A DNA stretch of 25,366 nt from a virus, in IMG/VR virus record IMGVR_UViG_3300042907_000813, positions 1 to 25,366 of that record; one strand, written 5' to 3'. The stretch's first letter is position 1, and every line of letters starts with the position of its first letter. Both the position numbers and the translations under genes were made by a program. Positions 5,254 through 25,366 of the stretch are shown in pieces. The notes below the pieces were generated by a model. That model ran no database searches. It was given only the letters and a program-made list of their open reading frames with translations, and was not told the origin of the DNA.

Positions 5254-5879
5254 TGACTTATTCTATTCAACAACCTTATCTTAAAAATCATAAAGTTCAC
5301 GATTTTCATCAATCTCTTGAAAAAGAAAGGCAATCTATTGAAAGAGGAGATCACCTTGCAATTGTCCACCAACTGAATGTTGAGTATCAAAATCGTCATA
5401 ACATTCGCATAGATTTTGATACTTTCGAGGACAATTATGGAGATGATAGTTTCTCTAAGTTTAGAAATAAAGCAGGTGTTGATGCCTCTTTTGATTTGGT
5501 GAGTTGTAAGACGGGGAAAGTTCTTCAGAAAGGATTTACACTCGATTATAAGTTGCGTGATCCAAATGCACCTTGGGATGATTTTCTTGCAGAAATTGTG
5601 AGTCAGGACTTTGGTCTCTACTCTAATAAAATGCCAGTTCCCGGATGGGCACTTTGCAACCACAAGATTAATGATGCTATACTTTACATCCTCCCTTTAC
5701 ATAAAAAAGCAGCACTAGTGCTACGCAAAGAACTGAAGGAAGGACTTGAGAAGAGTAAATTTTCTATGAGAAATAGGAAGTATGCAAAAAACAACGGTTG
5801 GACTACAATTAGTGTTCCTATTGATTGGAGTCGCCTAACTAAGGTATGTCCAAGTACAATAATTTTCAACTATGAATGA
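5253..5879 (+). CDS. Unknown protein, possible PD-(D/E)XK-type nuclease, 208 aa
   Basis: A mixed alpha/beta protein directly upstream of a DNA methyltransferase and overlapping it by eight bases. Asp81 (ASFDLVS) lies 17 residues before FTLDYK, whose Asp98-x-Lys100 could be the (D/E)xK part of a PD-(D/E)XK nuclease core; Glu114 and Gln118 follow. Later segments are HKINDAILYILP (137-148) and NNGWTTISVPIDWSRL (180-195). Pairing with a methyltransferase would fit a restriction-modification-like unit, but this reading depends on spacing of a few residues and may be wrong. Confidence 0.65.
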   Translation: MTYSIQQPYLKNHKVHDFHQSLEKERQSIERGDHLAIVHQLNVEYQNRHNIRIDFDTFEDNYGDDSFSKFRNKAGVDASFDLVSCKTGKVLQKGFTLDYKLRDPNAPWDDFLAEIVSQDFGLYSNKMPVPGWALCNHKINDAILYILPLHKKAALVLRKELKEGLEKSKFSMRNRKYAKNNGWTTISVPIDWSRLTKVCPSTIIFNYE

Positions 5880-6546
5880 TGTAAAACTTTATAACGATAA
5901 TTGTATGAATGTACTCCCATCACTTGCTGACGGGAGCATTTCGCTTACTCTTACAGATATACCATATGATGAGGTAAATCGTAAGAGTGGTGGATTAAGA
6001 AATCTGGATAAGAGTCACGCAGATATCATTACATTTCCACTGGATGACTTTATCGATGAAGTTGTTCGTGTGACTTCTGGGAGCATTTATATCTTTTGCG
6101 GTTCAGTTCAAGTATCACATATTCGCAGTCGCCTGATAGATCACGGATTATCTGTAAGACACTGTATATGGGAAAAAACCAATCCTTCTCCGATGAATGG
6201 GCAATATATCTGGCTCTCCAGCATAGAGAACTGTGTGTTTGCTAAAAAGTCCGGAGCAGTATTTAATGAGCACTGTAAGTCTGCAGTATGGCGTAATCCT
6301 ATTGAACATTATAAAGACCACCCCACACCTAAACCAGTCAAACTTATGTCAAGGTTGATTGAGGCAAGTTCAAATGTGGGTGATACAGTATTGGATCCTT
6401 GTATGGGAAGTGGTGCGATTGGTGTTGCTGCTAAGCAATGCGGTAGAAACTTCATTGGAATTGAAATGAACGCAGAATATTTTGCAATGACTAAGAACAG
6501 AATCTATGAACAAAGTGAAAGTATTTTGTCCTTTATGGACACTTGA
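5872..6546 (+). CDS. DNA adenine/cytosine-N4 methyltransferase (N6_N4_Mtase family)
   Basis: A 224-residue SAM-dependent DNA methyltransferase with beta-class motif order. The catalytic motif IV TDIPY (28-32) replaces the usual DPPY; HPTPKPVKLM lies at 150-159; and the SAM-binding motif I LDPCMGSGAIGVAA is at 174-187, followed by FIGIEMN (194-200). It transfers a methyl group to an exocyclic amino group of adenine or cytosine; the target site cannot be read from sequence. Ile instead of Pro in motif IV is unusual but keeps Asp, Pro and Tyr. It may protect phage DNA from host or partner nucleases. Its last codons (Asp-Thr-stop) are already part of cassette B. Confidence 0.9.
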   Translation: MNDVKLYNDNCMNVLPSLADGSISLTLTDIPYDEVNRKSGGLRNLDKSHADIITFPLDDFIDEVVRVTSGSIYIFCGSVQVSHIRSRLIDHGLSVRHCIWEKTNPSPMNGQYIWLSSIENCVFAKKSGAVFNEHCKSAVWRNPIEHYKDHPTPKPVKLMSRLIEASSNVGDTVLDPCMGSGAIGVAAKQCGRNFIGIEMNAEYFAMTKNRIYEQSESILSFMDT

Positions 6547-7576: not shown

Positions 7577-7697
7577 TAAACTTATTTTTATTTCGTCCTT
7601 TCTTTGGTTTATGCACTGGTTATGCAATCTGTCATCGCTATTTCTGGATATGGTTTTCGCAAGCGCACTTGCGAAGATGTTACCTCTTGGTTTTTGA
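7563..7697 (+). CDS. Possible small membrane peptide, 44 aa (doubtful)
   Basis: MTKTDKLIFISSFLWFMHWL begins a hydrophobic stretch. It overlaps the previous peptide by 14 bases and the metallopeptidase-like gene by 76 bases, which is more than usual here. It fills the gap between those genes, the main reason to list it; it may not be translated. Confidence 0.3.
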   Translation: MTKTDKLIFISSFLWFMHWLCNLSSLFLDMVFASALAKMLPLGF

Positions 7698-8101
7698 ATA
7701 AGTTCTTTCCACGCCACAAAATCTATGTTGAGATTGTTCACCGTGGATTGAGGCGTGAGGGTGTTTATGGGTGGTGTGATGTTCTGGGCGAAACCTACCG
7801 CCCCAGAGAGTTCCTGATTGAACTGAATACCTATATGGATGAGGAGTTGTATATAAAAACTCTTTTTCACGAACTGACCCACCTGAGGCAGTGGGTAGTC
7901 GGTTCTCTCCGCCAGAAACGTGGAAAAATGTATTATGGTAAAGAATGTATGGAAGATTACGACTATTGGCATCAACCACACGAAATAGAGGCACGAGAGC
8001 AAGAAGAAACCCTATATGTGGAGTACTTAATTGATAAACAGGGTGTGCCAGCTCCCAAAGTGGCACACTGGTTCCCGAACCGCCTGATGCAGGCAGTATA
8101 A
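7622..8101 (+). CDS. HExxH metallopeptidase-like protein, 159 aa
   Basis: FHELTHLRQW (82-91) contains the zinc-binding HExxH helix (His83, Glu84, His87), and QPHEIEAREQEE (118-129) offers a third metal ligand about 34 residues later, a layout like SprT-type or other small phage metallopeptidases. GWCDVLGETYRPREFLIEL (50-68) forms the preceding strands. The ATG at 7622 is chosen; a TTG at 7604 is in frame but less likely. Protease activity is inferred from the motif. The last codons overlap the -10 box of cassette C (GTATAAT contains the TAA stop). Confidence 0.75.
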   Translation: MQSVIAISGYGFRKRTCEDVTSWFLNKFFPRHKIYVEIVHRGLRREGVYGWCDVLGETYRPREFLIELNTYMDEELYIKTLFHELTHLRQWVVGSLRQKRGKMYYGKECMEDYDYWHQPHEIEAREQEETLYVEYLIDKQGVPAPKVAHWFPNRLMQAV

Positions 8102-19322: not shown

Positions 19323-20507
19323 GTGGCATTATCACATTCACCGTCTATAGTTACAAATGGTCTTGTCCTTTGTTTAGACGCTGCGAATAGAAAGGGTTAT
19401 GATAAGTTTGAGAACTTAATGACTAGTTCTCAACTTGGAAATACCATACTTAATGATGGTGGAGCAGTTACTTTAACGACTGATACTACTATTGCGAGTC
19501 CATTTGGTGGAAGTGATGGTGTTTTAAAGTGTGTTCATACGACTAATACTCCTGGATATTTTCGTAGGGGACAAAATATGTCTCTTACGGCAGGAGTAAC
19601 TTATACTTTTAGTTTTTATTTTAAAAATGGAACCGTAAGTAATCCTTATGGACAAATTCCAATCAATTTTGGAATTACCATAAGCACTTATACTCCAACA
19701 TTTCAAACAATTGAAACTGCACTCAACACAAATATAGATGTTGGGAATGGATGGTATAGGCAGGTCGTTACATTTACACCATCATATACTCAAACATATC
19801 AGGTAAATTTTAACCAAGCAAACAATCAAACACTGGTAGGAACTTATTATCTTTATGGATTTCAATTAGAAATAGGTTCATCAGTAACCGATTATTACGC
19901 AACAACTTCCACCGCAAAAAATAGGGGAACTATTTTGAGCGATTTGAGTGGGCGTGGAAATACTGGAACTCTAACGAATGGTGTTGGATATGGCAATTCT
20001 AATAGTGGTTCTTTTGTTTTTGATGGGGTTAATGATTGTGTTGTAGTTAATAATAATGCTTCAATACTATCATCAACATCTTACACTAAAATTGCTTGGT
20101 TTTATCCAACTTCTTTTGCTACTCTTAATAATATCATTAGTGGTGTAAATGGTTTATCCGAACACGCTTTTTGGTTAGCAGGAGGAAATACATTAAATGC
20201 CGGGCATAATGGTTCTTGGAGCACCGTTGTTTCATCCACCACCCTTTCTTTGAATACTTGGTATTGTGGTGCGGTTACTTTTAGTACCACAACTGGTTGG
20301 GTTTTATATTTAAATGGAGTTCAAGAAGCAACTAATCTTTCTACAACAACTTTTAGTGGAACTGGAGCGATATTGATAGGTGCTTTTGCTACTGGAGACT
20401 TCGTATTCACTGGAAGAATAGCAAACACCAAAATATACAACAGAGTGCTCTCCGCAGCAGAAGTAAGACAAAATTTTAATGCCCTTAGAGGCAGATTTGG
20501 AATCTAA
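19323..20507 (+). CDS. LamG/concanavalin-like virion protein, 394 aa (paralogue 1)
   Basis: Starts with GTG. The N-terminus (IVTNGLVLCLDAANRKGYD) and the C-terminal laminin-G-like beta-sandwich (about residues 207-375, opening DLSGRGNTGTLTNGVGY and FVFDGVND) are shared with the two other paralogues, as is the end IYNRVLSAAEVRQNFNALRG. Between them (about 26-203) is an extra beta-rich domain with FQLEIGSSVTDYYAT, typical of carbohydrate-binding modules in phage fibre proteins. Probably a tail-fibre or capsid-decoration protein that touches sugars on the host. Confidence 0.82.
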   Translation: MALSHSPSIVTNGLVLCLDAANRKGYDKFENLMTSSQLGNTILNDGGAVTLTTDTTIASPFGGSDGVLKCVHTTNTPGYFRRGQNMSLTAGVTYTFSFYFKNGTVSNPYGQIPINFGITISTYTPTFQTIETALNTNIDVGNGWYRQVVTFTPSYTQTYQVNFNQANNQTLVGTYYLYGFQLEIGSSVTDYYATTSTAKNRGTILSDLSGRGNTGTLTNGVGYGNSNSGSFVFDGVNDCVVVNNNASILSSTSYTKIAWFYPTSFATLNNIISGVNGLSEHAFWLAGGNTLNAGHNGSWSTVVSSTTLSLNTWYCGAVTFSTTTGWVLYLNGVQEATNLSTTTFSGTGAILIGAFATGDFVFTGRIANTKIYNRVLSAAEVRQNFNALRGRFGI

Positions 20508-20510
20508 ATA
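20503..20510 (+). promoter_or_regulatory. Late promoter candidate TCTAAATA overlapping stop codon
   Basis: The last codons ATC-TAA continue as TCTAAATAAGACAAAG, placing a late-type -10 motif over the stop, 24 bases before the next LamG ATG. The same arrangement occurs at 21201. Confidence 0.45.
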
Positions 20511-20533
20511 AGACAAAGAGGTATTGAGAGAAT

Positions 20534-21205
20534 ATGGGAATAAATTATAATCCTCGCACAGTTACTGATGGTTTGGTACTTGCTTTAGACGCTGCGAACA
20601 GAAAGTCTTATCCTGGTTCTGGAACTACTTGGACTGATTTGAGTGGTAGAGGTAATACTGGAGCACTGGTAAATACTCCAACTTATAGTAGTACGAATGG
20701 TGGGTCTTTGGTTTTTAATGGAAGCAGTCAATATGTAAACTGTGGAAATGCTACTAATCTTCAAATTACAGTTGGAACAATTTCTGCTTGGTTTAATGCA
20801 AATAATGGAAACTCTGGTTATAACGGAATAATTGCTAAACAAAATGCTTGGGGTTTATTTGTAGCAGATAATGTATTAAAAACTTATGATTGGGGTGCCG
20901 CTGGAGGTGCAGAAAGAAATACTGGAATTACTGTAGGAAATAGTACTTGGAATTATGCCGCTATGACTTTTACTGAAACTGTAGGAACTCCATCTAATAA
21001 TGCTATTGTATATTTGAATGGTAGTCCTGTATTGACAACTACAGTAAAACATTCAAATCATACTGTACAAGTTCAAATAGGAGAAGCAAATGCCGGACAG
21101 TTGTTCGGTGGAAACATAGCACAAGCATCAATATACAACAGAGCACTTACAGCAGCAGAAATCCAACAAAACTTTAATGCCCTTCGTGGTCGTTTCTCAA
21201 TCTAA
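20534..21205 (+). CDS. LamG/concanavalin-like virion protein, 223 aa (paralogue 2, short form)
   Basis: Same N-terminal module (TDGLVLALDAANRKSYPGSG) running straight into TWTDLSGRGNTGALVN and a LamG domain (about 56-210), without the 175-residue insert of its neighbours. Ends IYNRALTAAEIQQNFNALRG then RFSI. Preceded by AGAGGTATTGAGAGAAT as ribosome-binding region. Probable virion surface or fibre protein; the short form shows the core architecture. Confidence 0.82.
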   Translation: MGINYNPRTVTDGLVLALDAANRKSYPGSGTTWTDLSGRGNTGALVNTPTYSSTNGGSLVFNGSSQYVNCGNATNLQITVGTISAWFNANNGNSGYNGIIAKQNAWGLFVADNVLKTYDWGAAGGAERNTGITVGNSTWNYAAMTFTETVGTPSNNAIVYLNGSPVLTTTVKHSNHTVQVQIGEANAGQLFGGNIAQASIYNRALTAAEIQQNFNALRGRFSI

Positions 21206-21208
21206 ATA
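21201..21208 (+). promoter_or_regulatory. Late promoter candidate TCTAAATA before the gene at 21223
   Basis: CTAAATACTACAA starts at 21202, overlapping the TAA stop (21203-21205), 15-22 bases before the next ATG. It matches the ATAAATACTACAA found before cp12. Confidence 0.5.
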
Positions 21209-21222
21209 CTACAAAAACTATT

Positions 21223-21570
21223 ATGTACGACCAAAGAAACTTTGCAATCTTCTCAGTAACAGAGTTAGACCAAATCAACTTCACAGAAGTATTAGAAACC
21301 TCCACAGAAACTGTAAGAAAATCTGTGGATGGCACCAAGACATTTGTAAAGTGGGACGGAGAAACTCCGCCACCATCAGTACAGACACTCACAACAGTTG
21401 AGGGTCCTTATACTTACTCAGAGATTTTAGAGATACTTTCAGGACCTGAATGGAGTGCTCCTATGCCTATGGAGGAACCCGTATTGGTTCGTGCCAGAGA
21501 TGAGGATGGAAGATTTATTCCAGATGACCCAACAACTCCAGATGTAAATGAAGCCTGGAGGGAAGCATAA
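21223..21570 (+). CDS. Small conserved virion-region protein, 115 aa
   Basis: MYDQRNFAIFSVTELDQINF and SVDGTKTFVKWDGETPPP; I recognise this type from cyanophage structural regions, where such a protein often sits beside fibre genes. A proline-rich C-terminal part follows (IPDDPTTPDVNEAW). Possibly a fibre-assembly or chaperone-like protein; unproven. Confidence 0.78.
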   Translation: MYDQRNFAIFSVTELDQINFTEVLETSTETVRKSVDGTKTFVKWDGETPPPSVQTLTTVEGPYTYSEILEILSGPEWSAPMPMEEPVLVRARDEDGRFIPDDPTTPDVNEAWREA

Positions 21571-21571
21571 G

Positions 21572-22804
21572 GTGGGTGTTTATTCCGGACCTGAAATTAC
21601 AAATGATGGTTTAGTATTATCACTTGATGCTGCGAACTTAAAAGGTTATGATAAGTATGAGAATTTAATATCTCATAGTGCTTCAACAAGTGGAATAGTT
21701 TTGGGGGCGATTGGTTCTGGTGGTTCTTTACCTACTGGATGGGTTATTGACCAAGGACAACCAGGAACTACTTTGGAAGTTGTTGGATATGGTATAGAAG
21801 AAGGTTTAAATTATATTGATTTAAAGTTCTCTGGAACAACTAGTACGACTAATAGATGGTTAGTGAGACCTGGAAATGCAGTTTCATTAACTTCTGGTGT
21901 GACATATAATAGTTCAGTATATGCCAAAACAATTTCGGGAACACCAACTGATTTTAGACAATTTAGTGTTTTTGGTGGCGGTTCTGGAGCAAGTTTATCT
22001 GGAATTAATTCAACTCTAACAAGATATTCTGGAAGTTCTGCTGCTGGGTCAACAGGTACTTATTATCCAAGATTAGATATTGGATATAATAGTATTGGAA
22101 CAGTAATGAATTTCACCATTAGAGTTGCTGGATTTCAGGCAGAAGTAGGTTCATCAGTAACAGATTACTACCCAACAACAGGAACCGCAAAAACCAGAGG
22201 AAGCACTCTGATTGATTTGAGTGGGCGTGGTAATACTGGAACCTTGACAAATGGTGTTGGTTATAATAATTCTAATATTGGTTCTTTTGTTTTTGATGGG
22301 GTTGATGATTATATAACTTGCGGTAACCCAAGTTCATTAAATTTTGGAACAGGAAATTTTACAATATCTTTTATTGTGTATACAACTGCCTATGGATTTC
22401 AGGGCGGTTCATATGTTGGTAAGGGGAATGGAACTACTATAGGATTTGATTTTAGGGACGGTGGATTTTTTCTTTATGGAACAACAGGTCTAATAGCATA
22501 TAACTCATTTGCTGCTACTTTAAATGTATGGGAACATCATACTATTGTGTATGATAGTTCTTCTTCGCCATATGTTAAATTTTATAAGAATGGTACATAT
22601 ACAGGAGGAAGTACTACTAATAATGCCGGAAATATTTCTTCTATTGATACTTCTGAACCTTTAAGAATTGGTTTATCGGTTGCGGGAGGTCCAACTAGAT
22701 ATTTTAATGGGAGAATGCCTTTAGTACAAATATACAACAGAGCACTCACGGCAGCAGAAATTCAACAAAACTACAATGCCACCAAGTCAAGATATGGTCT
22801 TTGA
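21572..22804 (+). CDS. LamG/concanavalin-like virion protein, 410 aa (paralogue 3)
   Basis: The GTG at 21572 follows GGAGGGAAGCATAAG and gives an N-terminus (VYSGPEITNDGLVLSLDAAN) aligned with the other two paralogues, so it is preferred over the upstream ATG at 21548. Insert domain at about 26-210 with FQAEVGSSVTDYYPTT, then LIDLSGRGNTGTLTNGVGY and a LamG domain (about 237-392). Ends IYNRALTAAEIQQNYNATKS. Likely host-recognition or decoration protein. Terminator H follows. Confidence 0.83.
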   Translation: MGVYSGPEITNDGLVLSLDAANLKGYDKYENLISHSASTSGIVLGAIGSGGSLPTGWVIDQGQPGTTLEVVGYGIEEGLNYIDLKFSGTTSTTNRWLVRPGNAVSLTSGVTYNSSVYAKTISGTPTDFRQFSVFGGGSGASLSGINSTLTRYSGSSAAGSTGTYYPRLDIGYNSIGTVMNFTIRVAGFQAEVGSSVTDYYPTTGTAKTRGSTLIDLSGRGNTGTLTNGVGYNNSNIGSFVFDGVDDYITCGNPSSLNFGTGNFTISFIVYTTAYGFQGGSYVGKGNGTTIGFDFRDGGFFLYGTTGLIAYNSFAATLNVWEHHTIVYDSSSSPYVKFYKNGTYTGGSTTNNAGNISSIDTSEPLRIGLSVAGGPTRYFNGRMPLVQIYNRALTAAEIQQNYNATKSRYGL

Positions 22805-23822: not shown

Positions 23823-24563
23823 TCAGTTATAATACCATAAGAAACCTTTGTATGTGTATTTGTTAGGATTGCGTAAACTCTTAATCAAACCACTTCCATT
23901 ACTTCCATCACCTATCTGTCGTATTGCCTCACTAATGCTTTCATAGTATACTTCAACGTGAGTCACTTTATGTACTCCTTTGACTGAACGTTTATGAGTT
24001 TTTTTGTCTAATACTTTCCATCTGTATCCATAGTAGGTATTACCTTTCTTTGCCGCATTTAATACATTACCATTTCTTTTTTTATCTCCGGTAAGTTCTA
24101 ATGCAGCTTCTCTTGAGTTCTCCCATTCTTTAACTTCACCTGTTTCAATGTGTGTACCCTGAACTCTGATACTTAAACACTTACCGGTTGATCTTTCTTC
24201 TGGTTTAATCTGTCTCCAGGTTGGTTTCTTTTCTTTTACCACTGGAATAGGTTCTTCGGTAATAATAGGTTCGGGAGGTTCTGGTTTCTTTTTGGGTAGA
24301 GGATCATTATATTCTGGTTTATATTGTTCAAACCAATAAGTTACCTTATCTTCCAGTATTTTCTCATCACATTCATCAATCTGTTTAATCATGAACTTGT
24401 GTAGTCCATATTGACGGAATGCTCTGTGTATAAGTTCCGTGGACATTCTATTTGATGCCTGAATGTGATTCTGCCATTCTTTATTCATTGACAGTGTGGT
24501 TGCATTCAGGTACTTGTGCCCGGTCTCTTTGTTGATGATAATGTATACTATACCCTGTGCCAT
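23823..24563 (-). CDS. GIY-YIG homing-type endonuclease with two DNA-binding modules, 246 aa
   Basis: The only gene on the minus strand. The N-terminal 85 residues follow a GIY-YIG layout: GIVYIIINKETGHKYLNAT (4-22), where YLN replaces the usual YIG, then a helix and WFEQYKPEYN (77-86). A Pro/Glu linker (90-115) leads to two related modules, about 133-186 (SREAALELTG to YYGYRWKVLD) and 197-246 (SISEAIRQIG to YTYKGFLWYYN), of the NUMOD/IENR type found in phage homing nucleases. It would cut DNA at a specific site and spread by homing. The altered YIG triplet raises doubt about catalysis. Upstream on its strand lies a TATAAT (24608-24613). Confidence 0.8.
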   Translation of the reverse strand: MAQGIVYIIINKETGHKYLNATTLSMNKEWQNHIQASNRMSTELIHRAFRQYGLHKFMIKQIDECDEKILEDKVTYWFEQYKPEYNDPLPKKKPEPPEPIITEEPIPVVKEKKPTWRQIKPEERSTGKCLSIRVQGTHIETGEVKEWENSREAALELTGDKKRNGNVLNAAKKGNTYYGYRWKVLDKKTHKRSVKGVHKVTHVEVYYESISEAIRQIGDGSNGSGLIKSLRNPNKYTYKGFLWYYN

Positions 24564-24570
24564 ATGTGGT

Positions 24571-24643
24571 GTATTGTAAAGAACGACTATAGTATTGTAT
24601 GTATGTTATTATAGTATTGCAAAGAACGACTATAGTATTGTGT
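24571..24643. repeat. Two 30-bp direct repeats upstream of the endonuclease gene
   Basis: GTATTGTAAAGAACGACTAT (24571 on) and GTATTGCAAAGAACGACTAT (24614 on) each continue AGTATTG and differ at only two positions over 30 bases. Starts are 43 bases apart. On the minus strand a TATAAT lies between them. They may be regulator sites for the endonuclease gene or remains of a duplication. Confidence 0.8.
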
Positions 24644-24685: not shown

Positions 24686-24706
24686 TGTGGAAAAACCTGT
24701 GGAAAA
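24686..24706. other. Two DnaA-box-like sequences
   Basis: TGTGGAAAA occurs at 24686-24694 and 24698-24706, each one base from the DnaA box TGTGGATAA, in the same orientation and 12 bases apart. They lie in AT-rich sequence just before the 20-bp repeat array, as in many replication origins. Confidence 0.4.
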
Positions 24707-24749: not shown

Positions 24750-24920
24750 TTTAATGTGAGATCTTATTGGATAAATGTGAGTTAATGTGAGATCTTATAA
24801 TTTAATGTCCGATCTTATAATTTAATGTGAGATCTTATAATTTAATGTGAGATCTTATAATTTAATGTGAGATCTTATAATTTAATGTGAGATCTTATAA
24901 TTTAATGTGAGATCTTATTG
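24750..24920. repeat. Tandem 20-bp repeat array (iteron-like) with GATC in each unit
   Basis: Seven contiguous units of TTTAATGTGAGATCTTATAA from 24781 to 24920. The first starts GTTA, the second has TCC for TGA, and the last ends TTATTG. An outlying unit at 24750-24769 also ends TTATTG, so both edges match. Each unit carries the palindrome AGATCT (GATC), and unit junctions create TTATAATTTAA. No spacers are present, so this is not a CRISPR. It could be a replication-origin iteron array or a protein-loading site. Confidence 0.88.
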
Positions 24921-24928
24921 CAAGTAAA

Positions 24929-24950
24929 GCGAGCATACCATAAGACTCGC
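24929..24950. repeat. Short inverted repeat GCGAG/CTCGC
   Basis: GCGAG (24929-24933) and CTCGC (24946-24950) flank ATACCATAAG-type sequence between the 20-bp array and the palindrome array. The stem is only five bases; it may mark the boundary between them. Confidence 0.4.
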
Positions 24951-25010
24951 AGTTTGTCAACCCCACCCCCGCGAAAATGTGCCGAGACCCACATAAGACT
25001 GCCCAGGGAC

Positions 25011-25039
25011 TTGACAATCCTTAGAATCTAGTCTAGAAT
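25011..25039 (+). promoter_or_regulatory. Promoter P1 (TTGACA-17-TAGAAT) overlapped by palindrome 1
   Basis: A perfect -35 TTGACA (25011-25016), 17-base spacer and -10 TAGAAT (25034-25039), the best sigma70-type match in the window. The first palindrome (25027-25037) covers the end of the spacer and most of the -10, so a protein bound there should block transcription. Confidence 0.65.
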
Positions 25040-25309
25040 ACTCATAAGCACACAGAATCTAGTCGAGAATATCAGCAAATCTAGACGAGACCCACACATA
25101 AGTACACAAATCTCGACTAGAATGCATATATACTATCACATTCTCGTCGAGATATCATACTTGCATCTCGTCGAGATTTGTGCTATACTATCAACGTTCA
25201 TACAATCTCGACGAGCTTATGTACGACGACTACGATCTCGACTACACATACACAAACGACTATGGGAATCTAGACGAGTATTATACATCAGATCTAGATC
25301 TAGACGAGG
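25027..25309. repeat. Array of ten 11-bp near-palindromes TCTMGWCKAGA
   Basis: Copies start at 25027, 25058, 25080, 25111, 25142, 25166, 25206, 25236, 25269 and 25299. Examples are TCTAGTCTAGA (25027), TCTCGTCGAGA (25142 and 25166) and TCTAGACGAGA (25080); later copies vary at the last base or more. The usual context is AAT before and AT after. Start distances are 31, 22, 31, 31, 24, 40, 30, 33 and 30, mostly near three helical turns. The first six are perfect or near-perfect palindromes around a central A or T, typical of a dimeric DNA-binding protein. Confidence 0.85.
25161..25189 (+). promoter_or_regulatory. Promoter P2 (TTGCAT-17-TATACT) with palindrome 6 in the spacer
   Basis: TTGCAT (25161-25166), spacer of 17, TATACT (25184-25189). 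GTGCTATACT and the later TTCATACA resemble promoter H (GTGCTATAAT, CTCATACA). The 13-bp perfect palindrome ATCTCGTCGAGAT (25165-25177) lies between the two boxes, an ideal operator position. The ATG at 25219 is 35 bases from the -10, as in cassette C. Confidence 0.6.
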
Positions 25310-25365
25310 ACTATGCACGAGATGCACATGATTACGAATCACTTGCATATCGTCACTATGCATGA
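25219..25365 (+). CDS. Tyr/Asp-rich small protein containing the palindrome repeats, 48 aa
   Basis: ATG at 25219 to TGA at 25363-25365; a GTG at 25180 in the same frame is upstream of the expected transcript start and less likely. Composition is extreme: Tyr and Asp/Glu make up about two thirds (MYDDYDLDYTYTNDYGNLDE). Copies 8-10 of the palindrome lie inside and read LDY or LDE in the same frame; copy 7 lies just before the start. No ribosome-binding site is visible. Possibly a short acidic peptide controlled by P2; it could also be an open frame produced by the repeats. Confidence 0.5.
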   Translation: MYDDYDLDYTYTNDYGNLDEYYTSDLDLDEDYARDAHDYESLAYRHYA

Positions 25366-25366
25366 T

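Follow-up and report, generated by a model that had tools for sequence, protein, structure and literature searches.

The stretch of DNA analysed here (the window) is a whole public viral record of 25,366 bases, with an array of short palindromes at its right end, where the record stops inside a conserved unit. In a phage collection the window matches Synechococcus phages, mainly the myoviruses S-PM2 and S-SRM01, and these matches mark it as a piece of a T4-like cyanophage (cyanomyovirus). Such phages are among the most abundant viruses of lakes and oceans; the timing of their early transcription and the sites where their replication starts are little known. The window also holds an N6/N4 DNA methyltransferase gene (5872-6546) and, nearer the array, three LamG-domain protein genes (19323-22804) matching phage structural families; a search for RNA families and tRNAs detected none. 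A free-standing homing-endonuclease-like gene of the HNH/GIY-YIG families (23823-24563, minus strand) abuts the origin-like region. Genes of this class stand beside the array in 24 loci as well, and an HNH gene flanks the third array of S-SRM01 (90907-91006). Features of the right end, in order, are:

24571-24641, no strand: 21-bp tandem repeat of 3.3 copies (GTATTGTAAAGAACGACTATA), left edge of the origin-like region
24686-24694, minus: cyanobacterial-type DnaA box, TTTTCCACA, reading TGTGGAAAA on the plus strand
24698-24706, minus: second DnaA box, TTTTCCACA, 12 bp from the first and in the same orientation
24782-24918, no strand: AT-rich 20-bp tandem repeat of 6.8 copies (TTAATGTGAGATCTTATAAT)
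24932-24960, minus: leftward promoter-like block, TTGACA-17-TATGCT, preceded by TG
25011-25039, plus: promoter P1, TTGACA-17-TAGAAT
25027-25037, no strand (as for all sites): site 1, exact, on the -10 of P1
25058-25068: site 2, exact
25080-25090: site 3, exact
25111-25121: site 4, exact
25142-25152: site 5, exact
25161-25189, plus: promoter P2, TTGCAT-17-TATACT, with TGC before the -10 (extended -10)
25166-25176: site 6, exact, in the P2 spacer, its centre 13 bp before the -10
25206-25216: site 7, one mismatch, in the leader immediately ahead of the start codon
25219-25365, plus: small acidic gene, 48 aa (MYDDYDLDYTYTNDYGNLDEYYTSDLDLDEDYARDAHDYESLAYRHYA)
25236-25246: site 8, one mismatch, inside the small acidic gene
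25269-25279: site 9, one mismatch, inside the small acidic gene (NLDE codons)
25299-25309: site 10, one mismatch, inside the small acidic gene (LDE codons)
25343-25366, plus: third promoter-like stretch, TTGCAT-17-(TATAAT), of which the record end leaves the left part

The earlier note on this DNA had claimed a ten-copy array of the 11-bp near-palindrome TCTMGWCKAGA, and ten copies are found at 25027-25309 (six exact, four with one mismatch), whereas 100 dinucleotide-preserving shuffles of the window average 1.05 copies and never exceed 4. The motif is clustered relative to its background, with no copy elsewhere in the 25-kb window, and relatives keep the palindromes. Consecutive spacings are 31, 22, 31, 31, 24, 40, 30, 33 and 30 bp, so the statement that most copies lie 30-31 bp apart only just holds (five of nine); a period of 10.5 bp, the best among the periods tried (R = 0.40), is backed by 309 spacings from 63 non-redundant relatives, and suggests a preference, as if dimers lined up along one DNA face. 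Non-redundant arrays from IMG/VR show spacing peaks at 24-26 and 31-33 bp. Mixed half-site forms are present among the copies, as had been claimed, and across 413 copies the two variable half-site positions combine independently (184/99/92/38, p = 0.30), which fits a reading of each half-site by one subunit of a dimer. An RNA hairpin element was considered and rejected because of this independence: the pairing positions show no covariation.

P1 and P2 were found where the earlier note had drawn them, the one with copy 1 on its -10 and the other with copy 6 inside its spacer. Promoter-like matches by themselves are not rare by chance, and the case for promoters therefore rests on the conserved register. 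Of 84 loci, 59 have a site in the spacer of a TTGCAT/TTGACA-type promoter, with its centre 11-14 bp before the -10 begins, and at promoters of the P1 type (TTGACA-TAGAAT/TAAAAT) in relatives a site lies at -2 or +10 from the -10. When sites were shifted as a control, the largest count at a single offset averaged 6.5, compared with 31 observed, yet one shift also reached 31, probably through the periodicity of the arrays themselves, which weakens the control. Sites appear to hold a fixed register on promoters, with the arrays upstream of one gene family (c12, below) as the exception. Facing the other way, 44 of 63 loci have a leftward TTGACA-16/18-TAYGCT/TATAAT match, almost always at the same block and with a spacer of 17 bp. 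No other stretch of the region is as conserved as this block, and similar blocks occur in the array-less phages S-ShM2, Syn9 and S-PM2. The third promoter-like stretch is complete in one relative (L320), where TTGCAT-17-TATAAT runs across the 3' end of the small gene and lies ahead of the next conserved one; it was seen in individual relatives.

The small acidic gene begins inside the array. Its product is very acidic and rich in tyrosine, ends in a C-terminal LAYRHYA and gave no match in Pfam or PHROGs, and the family is previously undescribed. The gene is in all likelihood translated, because pN/pS is 0.17 from its start codon onward and 0.86 upstream in the same frame, and because third codon positions vary most (0.44 vs 0.26 and 0.24). 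An AlphaFold model of low confidence (pLDDT 63, pTM 0.16) suggests that the protein is probably disordered. Relatives of the gene were found in 97 loci, where sites stand at recurring distances from the stop codon; in the loci tabulated, distances between in-gene sites differ, as read by eye, by multiples of three. Site-forming codons (CTMGACGAG) were used in 108 of 130 LDE triplets, where our arithmetic from the use of L, D and E codons elsewhere in the same genes gives an expectation of about 12. Because codon choice so far exceeds expectation, the small gene appears to carry both its protein and putative operators in the same codons; such overlap of operators with the coding sequence of a gene would be a clear case of dual coding. 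The next conserved gene encodes 50 aa, and its product is modelled confidently (pLDDT 87), with no match to that model in the PDB.

How widely the array occurs was assessed in two ways. A scan of IMG/VR with a pair of motifs matched at least 120 viral stretches, control palindromes being almost absent from the same scan; with near-duplicates removed, the matches listed comprise 114 arrays and 413 copies, and extend the consensus to aTCTMGWCKAGAt. To avoid circularity, a second search used the small acidic protein instead of the motif and found the gene in 500 viral contigs. Among the non-redundant gene loci with enough upstream DNA, at least one site was present in 41 of 41 and at least three in 38 of 41, with a median of six. 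Cultured phages carry the array too: P-SSM2 has four exact sites at 66030-66169, S-SRM01 three site clusters in 85.6-91.0 kb, S-SKS1 two exact sites, and S-T4 an array. The S-T4 record (MH412654), 181 kb long, shows array and gene twice, near 2.7 kb and near 174.3 kb; the distance of 171.57 kb between the two suggests redundant record ends. A site cluster is present in all five gene-positive phages, and in none of six complete gene-negative cyanophages (S-PM2, S-CRM01, S-RSM4, S-SZBM1, S-ShM2 and Syn9) beyond a single pair of one-mismatch sites in Syn9; the five positive records are related, and one is an incomplete contig. Some of the counts given here were read by eye from tables.

Further arrays lie a few kilobases away. 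At least two sites stand close upstream in 16 of 35 non-redundant genes of the c12 family, and at least two upstream of small genes of the c28 family in 25 of 26. Arrays before several small genes suggest a small regulon. Those of the c12 family sit in gene gaps without a clear sigma70 promoter; repression of initiation does not explain every array, and sites of this kind could act as roadblocks. Some c28 arrays, such as that of L125 around 7600-7700, hold a GTGCCA...TGGCAC-type hairpin between sites. In the open-access (PMC) literature the hits listed for the motif concern unrelated primers and genes, and among the papers listed on cyanophage palindromes none evidently deals with this array.

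We infer protein binding, repression as its effect and a phage-made regulator from features read directly in the DNA: the sites, their registers, the conserved gene, its site-keeping codon bias and the neighbouring DnaA boxes. The locus is very probably a switch region that answers to a DNA-binding protein, and the array fairly probably supplies the operators of a divergent-promoter hub to a dimeric, probably phage-made regulator. Each palindrome would be a pair of half-sites for a sequence-specific dimeric protein; across the hub, which belongs to the small-gene region of T4-like cyanophages, dimers would occupy 5-10 sites aligned along one DNA face. Once bound, they would stop RNA polymerase at P2 through the site between -35 and -10 and at P1 through the site on the -10 or the start site, while leader and in-gene sites would act as a roadblock. 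Repression would silence the small acidic gene together with the small gene after it; the leftward transcript into the AT-rich repeats and DnaA boxes would perhaps be affected as well, and the array is possibly tied to the start of replication. The operator reading put forward in the earlier note is supported by promoter registers, independent half-sites and helical phasing, and neither of the two outcomes that the note had named as refuting was observed. As a whole the note's interpretation was too narrow: it missed the small coding gene with copies 8-10, the DnaA boxes and two further tandem repeats, and the array is one part of a conserved hub that also comprises the small acidic gene, the leftward promoter and the origin-like segment.

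That segment makes origin function a serious rival, or addition, to the operator reading. The locus could be mainly a replication origin, made up of the DnaA boxes or an alternative palindrome, the AT-rich 20-bp repeats as opening element and the leftward promoter as source of a primer transcript, in which the array palindromes bind a phage initiator that also regulates the adjacent promoters. The sequence TTTTCCACA is a cyanobacterial DnaA box (PMC4674748). Across 59 loci TTWTCCACA has a density of 1.25 per kb in the segment and 0.034 per kb elsewhere, with the boxes in tandem and in one orientation; the only DnaA-box cluster of S-SKS1 adjoins its array, and array-less S-ShM2, Syn9 and S-PM2 carry clusters in an apparently equivalent locus with a similar block. 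Upstream, 25 of 65 cases show tandem repeats with a period of 15-45; downstream, 1 of 56 does. The window's 20-bp repeat recurs in close relatives, with different repeats of about 20-21 bp in the segment at other loci, and a unit similar to its 21-bp repeat occurs in three (L059, L040 and L032). Against an origin as the main function, DnaA boxes are present in 16 of the 59 loci only, further arrays lie kilobases away in ordinary gene gaps, and sites track promoters and start codons. Words of the TTGAGAAT/ATTCTCAA type replace the boxes in about half of the loci, both being present in one locus only. GC skew divides among the eight genomes compared, its extreme lying within 4 kb of the locus in two (P-SSM2 and S-T4), at 8-12 kb in three and far off in three (S-SRM01, S-SKS1 and S-PM2). 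An origin as the main function is rather unlikely.

Fur-box-like palindrome words (TTCTCAATAA/TTATTGAGAAT) occur in 31 of 63 array loci where others have DnaA boxes, in most cases some 400-600 bp upstream of where the small gene ends. That several unrelated elements resembling binding sites share one locus recalls the earlier suggestion of a decoy, in which the sites, with the DnaA boxes and these palindromes, would titrate host regulators. A scan of 84,980 species genomes for such arrays gave 70 hits, none in a contig titled cyanobacterial, so that the array as such looks phage-specific and the host-regulator decoy is weakened; exact promoter and codon registers, moreover, would be needless for a decoy, which we regard as improbable. 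Clustered, evenly spaced palindromes could also form a centromere-like partition array, as the note had proposed, or a pac-like packaging array. No partition-type gene was recognised among the neighbours looked at; arrays stand at several loci and are missing from other family members, and a lytic T4-like phage has no need of partition. Either function is very unlikely. Copies 8-10 are coding, and the palindromes might be a mere by-product of a repetitive acidic protein whose LDE codons happen to spell them. Most sites, however, are upstream and non-coding, and site-making LDE codons are about nine times commoner than expected, leaving this explanation scarcely credible.

A convincing DNA-binding candidate for the regulator, shared by all positive phages, was not found. 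Just one gene that the five positive phages have in common hints at a regulator fold; it lies 3-7 kb downstream of the array and encodes an acidic AbrB/MazE-like protein, with weak MazE matches in some members only. Weaker relatives of it occur in array-less phages too, and it is a weak candidate. A winged-helix-like protein is encoded near an S-SRM01 array, and none was found in the other four positive phages. Near the AbrB-like gene, all five also encode a glycosyltransferase-like protein of about 255 aa (84-91% identical) with no match in the six array-less phages; this comparison of gene profiles, five positive phages against six negative, is confounded by relatedness.

A bolder form of the operator reading would make the array a master switch at an origin, in which a dimeric phage regulator of a new class couples early transcription to the start of replication and the acidic gene encodes its inhibitor, as a DNA mimic or antirepressor. 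We hold this to be unlikely; if true, the switch would be cyanophage-wide, with the array between divergent promoters beside host-type DnaA boxes. A conserved, easily tested cis-element is joined here, in one 800-bp locus, by an undescribed gene family and a candidate origin; hundreds of viral contigs have this locus, as do the cultured phages P-SSM2, S-SRM01, S-SKS1 and S-T4.

Several known systems invite comparison. Stoperators of the L5 clade (Cluster A) of mycobacteriophages are 13-bp directional sites, 20-30 of them over the genome, some in promoters and others at non-promoter positions where they block elongation (PMC6550527). The present array resembles them in offering many short sites, in and outside promoters, to one putative phage regulator. 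It differs in that its sites are symmetric 11-mers, grouped into one to three clusters with spacings mainly of 24-33 bp, and in that it belongs to T4-like phages and is embedded in a coding gene. No repressor homologue was found, and stoperators of that type, which require asymmetric scattered sites, were rejected as an identity for these symmetric, clustered ones. In phage lambda, the OR/OL region has three 17-bp operators between divergent promoters, overlapping -35 and -10 elements. The hub likewise has several putative operators between divergent promoters and over such elements, usually 5-10 sites of 11 bp in this case, with no repressor gene alongside; phages of the present kind are not known to be temperate. 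Tandem AT-rich repeats, DnaA boxes and repeated putative protein-binding sites are shared with iteron and DnaA-box origins, unlike which the array has palindromic sites in promoter register, and no initiator gene was recognised. Phage T4 itself has iterons beside repEB at oriE, and the array resembles oriE in being a set of repeats next to a small gene of a T4-like phage, with a repeat type and sequence of its own.
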